From Actinomycetota bacterium (lineage in GTDB: Bacteria > Actinomycetota > UBA4738 > HRBIN12), in the NCBI GenBank assembly GCA_029858935.1, contig JAOUEA010000003.1:1-34429 (forward strand): DNA of 34,429 bases, written 5' to 3'. Below are positions 30,077-33,973 of this stretch, piece by piece. Positions within the stretch are counted from its first letter, which is position 1; every line of letters starts with the position of its first letter. Below the pieces are notes generated by a model. It saw only the letters and a list, made by a program, of their open reading frames with translations, did not search any database and was not told the origin of the DNA. Position numbers and translations under genes: made by a program.

Positions 30077-31099
30077 TCACGGGGTGGAGAACCCCGCGCG
30101 CACTCCGAGCAAGCGCACCGGCCGGTCGAGGTCGAACTTCGCGAGCGCTGTCCGGGCTCCCTCGACGACGCGGTCGGCATCGATCGTGGGCTCGCCGAGT
30201 CCCACCCCGTGGGTCGACGTGAAGAAGGGTGCGAACCGCACCTTCACGGTGACGTGCGCGACGAGCCTGCCCTCAGGCAGGTCGGCGACGAGCTCGCGCG
30301 TGATGCGATCGACCTCCCGCGCGACCTCGTTCGCGTCGGTCAAGTTCGTCTGGAACGTGTGCTCGCGGCTCTGCCCCCGCGGCACGTACGGCTCCGCGGT
30401 GACCTCGCCGTCGTCCTCACCCGTGCCGAGCCGGCGGATCCACGGACCCGTGTTCGGCCCGAAACGCGATGCGAGGACCTCTTCGTCGGTGCCCGCGAGC
30501 TCGTCGACCGTGGCGATGCCCATCGCCTGGAGTTTGGCCGCGGTCTTCTTCCCGATGCCCCACAGGGCATCGACCGGCCGCGGGCCCATGACGGCCGGCC
30601 ACTCCTCGCGCGTGAGCCGGAACGCACCCCGTGGCTTCGCGAACGCGCTCGCCAACTTCGCGCGGTGCTTCGAATCGCCGATCCCGATCGAGCACCACAG
30701 GTCGGTACGTTCCAGCACGGCGTGCTGCACCTCGCGAGCGAGCGTCTCGGGCTGTTCGGTCTCGACGGCCATGAACGCCTCATCCCACCCGAGGACCTGC
30801 ACGACCGCCGGGAACGATCGCAGCGTGTCCATCACACGGGCGCTGGCCTCGAGGTAATGGTCGGCGTCGACGGCGAGGAACACGCCGTCGGGGCATCGCT
30901 TCAAGGCGGTGCGCAGCGGCATGCCGGAGCGCACGCCGAACTCCCGCGCCGCGTACGATGCGGTGGAGACGACGCCGCGCTTCGTCGGGTCGCCGTCACC
31001 CCCGACGATCACTGGCACGTCGCGCAGCTCGGGGCGTCGCAGCACTTCGACCGCCGCGATGAACTCGTCCATGTCGACGTGGAAGATCCAGCGCGTCAC
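30077..31099 (-). CDS. dinB: Y-family DNA polymerase (DinB/Pol IV family, DinB2-like)
   Basis: VTRWIFHVDMDEFIAAVEVLRRPELRDVPVIVGGDGDPTKRGVVSTASYAAREFGVRSGMPLRTALKRCP; 'VQVLGWDEAFMAVE', 'SIGIGDSKHRAKLASAFAKPRG', 'LWGIGKKTAAKLQAMGI'. Confidence 0.95.
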   Translation of the reverse strand: MTRWIFHVDMDEFIAAVEVLRRPELRDVPVIVGGDGDPTKRGVVSTASYAAREFGVRSGMPLRTALKRCPDGVFLAVDADHYLEASARVMDTLRSFPAVVQVLGWDEAFMAVETEQPETLAREVQHAVLERTDLWCSIGIGDSKHRAKLASAFAKPRGAFRLTREEWPAVMGPRPVDALWGIGKKTAAKLQAMGIATVDELAGTDEEVLASRFGPNTGPWIRRLGTGEDDGEVTAEPYVPRGQSREHTFQTNLTDANEVAREVDRITRELVADLPEGRLVAHVTVKVRFAPFFTSTHGVGLGEPTIDADRVVEGARTALAKFDLDRPVRLLGVRAGFSTP

Positions 31100-32295
31100 G
31101 ATCGCTCGCAGAGGGCGAGCACCAACGCGTCTGAAAGCTCGGCGTACTCGTCGACCCACGGGCGCGGCCAGCTCGAAAGGCGGGCGACGACCGTCCGCGA
31201 CGGGTGGTGCACCATGACCTGCTGACCGTTGATGCCGTAGCCGGCGTAGACGCCGGCCTGGGCGTCTCGCACCCACCACTGATCGTGATAGAAGGCTCCC
31301 GCAGGAAAGTCGCCCGCCTCGGGCGACGCCGAGAAGGCGTCGACGAGTGCCTCGTCTTTGACGCGCAGCCTCTGGATCCACTCGGCGGGCACCACCTGCC
31401 GGCCGTCGATCTCGCCGGCCTGCAAGTGCATCAGTCCGAACCGAGCCAGGTCCTCCAACGTCACGCAGAATCCGCCGGATGTGAGTGGAAACCCGGCGGG
31501 TCCGAGCATGAGATCGGCGTCGTGGGCGGCGCCCATCGGTGCCCACACCTCGTCGGAAAACAGGCTGGCGAGACGCTGTCCCGTCGCGCGCTCCATGCAC
31601 CAGCCCAGCACGTCGGTCAGGATCGAGCGGTACTCGAAGTTGCCTCCATGGGCGGTGTCGTTGCGCATGTTCGAGATGTAGTCGTGGGGGGTGGGGTCGT
31701 CGGGCAGGCGGGGGAGCCACCCCAAGATCCGGAACCCCCGGTGGGACTCAGAGGTCTCGTCCTCGTAGTCGGATTCGTCGAATGCCGTACCGGAACGCAT
31801 GTCCAGCAGGTGCTGCATCGAGCACCCCTCCCAGCAGGTTCCGCGCAGCTCCTCGATGTAGTCGGGCACCGTCGCGTCGAGCGTGAAGCGTCCCGAGCCG
31901 ACCAGCACGCCCGTCAAGGTGGCCGCCAGCGACTTCGAGACCGACTGGGTGATGTGGCTCATCGAGGTCGTCATGCCGTCGACGTAGTGCTCGAACACGA
32001 CGACACCGTCTCGGACGATCATCAAGCCGTCGACGAAGGTTCGTTCCATCGTCTCGCCGATCGTGTGTTCGCGGCCGCGATGACGGAACGAGAACCCCGA
32101 CAGATCGCGTTCCCGTCGCGGCAGCGGCGACACGGTCGTTCCGCGGGCCACTCGGGCGGTCGGCGCGAGCTCGCGCGTGTGCAGGAACGACCAGCGCTGA
32201 TAAGGCGCCTTGTCCCAGTTCGACCAGGTCACGACCTTCGCTGGTGGAGGCGGGGAGCCCGACATCAGCCCCAGGTCGAGCCAGCTCTCAGGCAT
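31096..32295 (-). CDS. Beta-lactamase/PBP-type serine hydrolase
   Basis: 'SHITQSVSKSLAATLTGVLVGSGRFTLDATVPDYIEEL' SxxK motif; 'YAGYGINGQQVMVHHPSRTVVARLS'; 4-nt GTGA overlap with dinB. Confidence 0.9.
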   Translation of the reverse strand: MPESWLDLGLMSGSPPPPAKVVTWSNWDKAPYQRWSFLHTRELAPTARVARGTTVSPLPRRERDLSGFSFRHRGREHTIGETMERTFVDGLMIVRDGVVVFEHYVDGMTTSMSHITQSVSKSLAATLTGVLVGSGRFTLDATVPDYIEELRGTCWEGCSMQHLLDMRSGTAFDESDYEDETSESHRGFRILGWLPRLPDDPTPHDYISNMRNDTAHGGNFEYRSILTDVLGWCMERATGQRLASLFSDEVWAPMGAAHDADLMLGPAGFPLTSGGFCVTLEDLARFGLMHLQAGEIDGRQVVPAEWIQRLRVKDEALVDAFSASPEAGDFPAGAFYHDQWWVRDAQAGVYAGYGINGQQVMVHHPSRTVVARLSSWPRPWVDEYAELSDALVLALCERS

Positions 32296-33156: not shown

Positions 33157-33663
33157 TCAATGACTCCGGGACGCTCGCTGCTGTCGAGCGAGGAGTTCTC
33201 GTAGCGCCGGCAGCACCGCGCGATCGCGGGCGCGCCCCGTGGCTTCCTTCGAGCGGATCACGTCGGCGAGCGATGCCACCGGCACCGTGACGCCCCGCAC
33301 GGTCATCGCTTCGGCGTCGCGCTCGAGATCGCGGTAGCCCTGAGTCCCGCTCGGCACGAACGAGATGTCGAGGTCGCCGAGCGCTGTCACGAGGTTCCAG
33401 ACCGCAACGCGGCGGAGCGAGTCTGCGGAGTGGTCGAACGGCACCCCGTCGGGCTCGCCGGACACCCTGATCCTCGCATCGAGCTCGTGCAGCGCGCGCG
33501 AGAGGCGGGCGAGGTTCTCGCGGCCGTCCTCGGGCACCACGTCGACGTCGGTGGTCAGATGTGCCGCACCGTGCAGCACGGCCGCGAGCCCGCCCACGAG
33601 CACGTAGCGCACCCCATGGCGGTCCAGCACGGCCATGATCTCTTGAGGGCGGAACTCAGGCAT
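33157..33663 (-). CDS. Nucleotidyltransferase-fold protein (MNT/AbiEii-like), putative toxin-like partner
   Basis: 'VRYVLVGGLAAVLHGAAHLTTDVDVVPE' (GG...T.DVD) and later 'LGDLDISFV' acidic strand; overlaps the upstream HTH gene by 8 nt. Confidence 0.75.
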   Translation of the reverse strand: MPEFRPQEIMAVLDRHGVRYVLVGGLAAVLHGAAHLTTDVDVVPEDGRENLARLSRALHELDARIRVSGEPDGVPFDHSADSLRRVAVWNLVTALGDLDISFVPSGTQGYRDLERDAEAMTVRGVTVPVASLADVIRSKEATGRARDRAVLPALRELLARQQRASRSH

Positions 33664-33973
33664 CGCCGTGCGCCTCCCGTGCGAGCTCCACGCCCGCGAT
33701 CAGTCGATCGAGTCTCGAATCGGGATCGAGCTGGGCCCCTTGTTCCGCGAGCGTCCACGCATCCTCGTCGAGGGGAACGACATGGATCTCGAGGTCGAAG
33801 CCGCAGGCGCGCACCAGCTCGAGGACGCGCTCGAAGGCCGGCTCCACGTGTCCGCTCTCGATCCGAGCCACCAGCGGCTGCGAAACTCCGGCGCGGGACG
33901 CGAGCGCGCGCTGCGTGAGGCCGGCCCTCAGCCGAGCTTCGCGAACGAACTGTGCTGCATGCATCGTCGCCAT
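33656..33973 (-). CDS. XRE-family helix-turn-helix regulator, putative antitoxin
   Basis: 'FVREARLRAGLTQRALASRAGVSQPLVARIESGHVEPAFERVLELVRACGFDLEI' HTH_3. Confidence 0.85.
   Translation of the reverse strand: MATMHAAQFVREARLRAGLTQRALASRAGVSQPLVARIESGHVEPAFERVLELVRACGFDLEIHVVPLDEDAWTLAEQGAQLDPDSRLDRLIAGVELAREAHGDA

Follow-up and report, generated by a model that had tools for sequence, protein, structure and literature searches.

The gene on the minus strand at positions 30077-31099 of the window, by which we mean the whole stretch of 34,429 nucleotides that was analysed, encodes a 340-aa Y-family polymerase that opens with VTRWIFHVDMDEFIAAVEVLRR and carries isoleucine at the steric gate (Ile14) together with threonine at the polar filter (Thr46; features in Table 1). 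We infer, with a probability of roughly 60%, that this is an active, distributive DinB2/DinP translesion DNA polymerase lacking a clamp motif, whose selectivity for the sugar would be weaker than that of E. coli Pol IV and clearly stronger than that of M. smegmatis DinB2.

Table 1. Features of the dinB2 locus, in window coordinates.
Feature	Position	Strand	Remarks
dinB2/dinP-type gene, 340 aa, GTG start, TGA stop	30077..31099	-	IMS, IMS_HHH, IMS_C; NF002883 499 bits (cut-off 330)
Codon 9, catalytic metal-binding Asp	31073..31075	-	invariant in 114 sequences
Codon 14 (ATC, Ile), steric-gate position	31058..31060	-	aligns to M. smegmatis DinB2 Leu14, E. coli DinB Phe13
Codon 46 (ACC, Thr), polar-filter position	30962..30964	-	aligns to E. 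coli Thr43, M. smegmatis Cys47
Codons 106-107, catalytic Asp-Glu of GWDEAF	30779..30784	-	invariant in 114 sequences
Upstream beta-lactamase-fold serine hydrolase gene (PF00144)	31096..32295	-	TGA overlaps dinB2 GTG by 4 bases (GTGA)

From the GC content by codon position (0.71/0.49/0.90), the match to a family model and the existence of orthologues at 51-77% identity, we conclude that this is a genuine gene. The family can be read directly from the protein, in which the Pfam domains IMS, IMS_HHH and IMS_C are present and residues 2-339 match the DinP-type NCBIfam model NF002883 at 499.4 bits (cut-off 330), while the remaining Pol IV models of NCBIfam score under their own cut-offs. MsDinB2 from the PDB matches the protein at 332 bits, and the fold predicted by AlphaFold (pLDDT 92.1) is nearest to the DNA-complex crystals of MsDpo4, which is M. 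smegmatis DinB2 (TM 0.94). The catalytic acids, which the preliminary description had judged to be intact, are so, D9, D106 and E107 being conserved in 114 of 114 aligned sequences. The protein stops at LLGVRAGFSTP, immediately past the little-finger domain IMS_C, and to judge from sequence length alone it consists of the polymerase region only, with no C-terminal clamp motif or extra domain; the DinP group has been described as polymerase region only (PMC6511836).

A tree built from 78 sequences, in which the columns of gate and filter were masked, gives the DinB2 clade (62 rows) a support of 100/100 and separates it from E. coli DinB, DinB1 and DinB3; the 340-aa protein falls inside this clade, next to sequences from its own genus and family. 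The phylogeny that the preliminary description had proposed as a check thus groups the protein with M. smegmatis DinB2 and apart from DinB1 and DinB3, and the description's assignment to a DinB2-like type with a beta-branched aliphatic gate is upheld by the family model, the tree and the predicted fold. Among the genomes sampled from the class, clear orthologues were confined to the protein's own family. We conclude that the protein, which comes from an uncultured family of actinobacteria, is an ordinary new member of the known actinobacterial DinB2/DinP error-prone repair polymerases. The source genome has two further DinB paralogues. One has a Tyr gate and a Ser filter and lies directly downstream of an ORF whose product, read by eye, looks like the C-terminus of a DnaE2-type polymerase; the other has a Tyr gate and an Ala filter and groups with sequences taken as mycobacterial DinB3. 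Together, the three DinB genes recall the mycobacterial DinB1/2/3 trio.

Isoleucine is at the steric gate exactly as had been described. Through the DxDxF-gate motif the 340-aa protein aligns without gaps both to M. smegmatis DinB2 (4dez) and to E. coli DinB (4r8u), which makes Ile14 the gate residue; the same ungapped alignments exclude a different aromatic residue as the true gate, which was one of the observations that the preliminary description had named as contrary to its own reading. Isoleucine is not unusual at this position and is the commonest gate in both of our samples. Among 104 distinct clade members, a set that is biased because it was gathered by similarity to an Ile-gate query, the gate is Ile in 60, Leu in 37, Val in 4 and Gln in 3, and with such recurrence of Ile a chance origin of Ile14 is not a concern. 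An even draw across the phylum gave 29 genomes of 398 with a clade member (E at most 1e-85), in which the gate, read by eye from the loci, is Ile in 12, Leu in 9, Val in 4 and Gln in 4. An Ile gate alone is also not new, as Ordonez et al. 2014 described actinobacterial enzymes gated by Ile, Leu or Val, with Ile in nine taxa and Val in two (PMC4176160). The polar gate Gln is absent from the gates given there (PMC4176160); four sequences with this gate (HVDLDQFQAAVE) and a Cys filter come from four mycobacteria-like genomes, and they fall into two separate groups of the tree.

The filter column is marked by PDB variants of the M. smegmatis enzyme, 6jum (C47T), 6jun (L14Y/C47T) and 6juo (L14Y), and by the E. 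coli Pol IV F13A/T43C structures 6jup and 6juq. A polar filter is present in E. coli Pol IV (PMC11253446), and the absence of the filter residue is a trait of the rNTP-using M. smegmatis DinB2 that the 340-aa protein does not share, since it has Thr46. Across the 104 clade members the filter is Thr in 93, Cys in 10 and Ser in 1, and an open gate with a Thr filter is the norm. The Cys-filter sequences, M. smegmatis DinB2 included, form one clade (100/100), with a single Thr-to-Cys event on the mycobacterial branch; on the tree, the filter changed 2 times inside the DinB2 clade, against at least 12 changes of the gate. Because the Thr filter is the clade norm and Cys arose once, M. smegmatis DinB2 is the exception in its own clade at one of the two reported sugar-selection sites. 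The preliminary description had suggested that the enzyme may use rNTPs by virtue of its likeness to M. smegmatis DinB2; the aliphatic gate behind this suggestion is real, but the likeness is weakened by Thr46, which stands where DinB2 has Cys47.

Among known systems, the protein resembles M. smegmatis DinB2 (MsDpo4; 4dez, 6jul) in clade, fold, length, aliphatic gate, catalytic acids and the lack of a C-terminal clamp motif, whereas it differs in having Ile rather than Leu at the gate and Thr rather than Cys at the filter, at an identity of about 48-51%. With E. coli DinB (Pol IV) it shares the Y-family fold, the Thr filter and the catalytic acids, but the E. coli enzyme has Phe13 as its gate and a C-terminal clamp-binding motif, and the identity is about 32%. 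The Ile-gate actinobacterial homologues of Ordonez et al. 2014 (Amycolatopsis, Kribbella, Rhodococcus and others) have the same gate residue and differ in lineage only, and the Rhodococcus and Amycolatopsis relatives sampled here have a Thr filter too. The closest crystallised match at gate and filter jointly is not the wild-type M. smegmatis enzyme but its C47T variant (6jum), which combines an aliphatic gate with a Thr filter, although it is engineered and its gate is Leu. As a separate matter, six DinB1 orthologues from mycobacteria-like genomes, so named since the DinB2 proteins of these genomes cluster with that of M. smegmatis, have Gly at the filter column and Phe at the gate; if M. smegmatis DinB1 shares this Gly, the strong rNTP exclusion reported for it would need no Thr filter.

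Intermediate selectivity is predicted because Ile14 opens the gate while the Thr46 filter stays. The aliphatic Ile14 would take away the aromatic wall that clashes with the ribose 2'-OH, and the retained Thr46 would still draw the 3'-OH and triphosphate of the incoming nucleotide toward the fingers. The outcome would be that dNTPs are preferred and that single rNMPs go in under a shortage of dNTPs or in the presence of Mn2+, with long RNA tracts being unlikely. Johnson et al. 2019 reportedly found that C47T alone drastically lowered the use of rNTPs by M. smegmatis DinB2, and on that basis the 340-aa enzyme would be the more selective one. Sulfolobus Dbh and Dpo4, which have Thr at the filter position, reportedly acquire rNTP insertion once the gate is cut to Ala, and this points in the opposite direction, toward more rNTP use despite Thr. 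In the literature searched, we found no direct measurement of sugar selectivity for a natural enzyme with an open gate and a Thr filter.

The strongest alternative, which we nevertheless consider unlikely, is that the 340-aa protein is a fully DinB2-like user of rNTPs, in which sugar choice would depend on the aliphatic gate alone, with a minor role for the Thr filter, and ribo-patches would be made when dNTPs are limiting. M. smegmatis DinB2 retains rNTP synthesis in L14A and loses it in L14F, and removal of the gate alone in M. smegmatis DinB1 (F23L) gives vigorous rNTP use, which counts against a role for the filter (PMC4176160). The DinB1 result is qualified by the filter column of mycobacterial DinB1 orthologues, which is Gly and not Thr. 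In the literature consulted, the enzymes tested with open gates carry Cys (MsDinB2) or, to judge from mycobacterial DinB1 orthologues, Gly at the filter, so that these gate-opening experiments do not bear on Thr. The polar-filter model is itself contested, in that most of the proposed hydrogen bonds, including those in Y-family structures, are geometrically poor (PMC10639073), and this favours a decisive gate, but rNTP use by DinB2 has also been ascribed to a missing polar filter plus a permissive gate (PMC10159617), which credits both determinants. RNase HII and two LigD-type prim-pol domains were found in the genome, so that embedded ribonucleotides could be dealt with; Ku was not found in the source genome (assembly 82% complete) and is present in a same-genus genome. 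Because the filter mechanism is disputed and the evidence pulls both ways, we hold intermediate selectivity at moderate confidence. Least probable is a stringent DNA polymerase, in which Thr46 with the fingers surface would be enough and Ile14 would serve, for example, bulky minor-groove lesions or template slippage, a reading to which the reported C47T effect would lend weight, as would the near invariance of the filter in the clade, expected if the filter carries selectivity, although Thr may be kept there for reasons unrelated to the sugar. Against it, the gate is as a rule aromatic outside the clade, and many Y-family enzymes used more rNTPs once such a gate had been opened (PMC4176160).

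The surroundings of the gene were also considered. The pairing of dinB2 with the serine hydrolase gene is probably incidental because it is not kept even within the genus; the hydrolase gene and its family are both missing upstream of the same-genus orthologue, and we therefore claim no functional link from the operon arrangement. With regard to SOS control, no convincing LexA-type box was found near the dinB2 start. A scan with the LexA pattern gave 77 weak matches scattered along the window, more than the shuffle expectation, and one 1-mismatch site at 32058, which lies inside the upstream gene and whose position permits no reading. A mobile origin was rejected, as the plasmid collection gave three matches, every one below 60% identity; phage matches were at about 32-36% identity among the matches listed, and these searches yielded no close copy on a plasmid or phage. 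Elsewhere in the window, at 33157-33973 on the minus strand, small overlapping genes code for a helix-turn-helix (HTH) protein and for a protein resembling nucleotidyltransferases, the latter with a weak match of the DUF6036/aminoglycoside adenylyltransferase type. Their arrangement recalls a toxin-antitoxin or HTH-nucleotidyltransferase pair.

The gate polymorphism by itself does not make the 340-aa protein an rNTP-using polymerase. A single residue is the ground on which the literature carries rNTP use over from one enzyme to the DinB2 clade as a whole. We suggest, tentatively and at less than even odds, that most members of the clade, the 340-aa protein among them, keep an intact filter behind an open gate, that RNA polymerisation is a late mycobacterial trait gained through one Thr-to-Cys change rather than a property of the clade, and that the aliphatic gate, which varies freely, serves another purpose. 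Because the DinB2 clade varies naturally at two sugar-selection sites, with I, L, V or Q as gates and T, C or S as filters, the dispute between gate and filter can be tested with natural enzymes, and the 340-aa protein is a convenient Ile/Thr representative of the clade.
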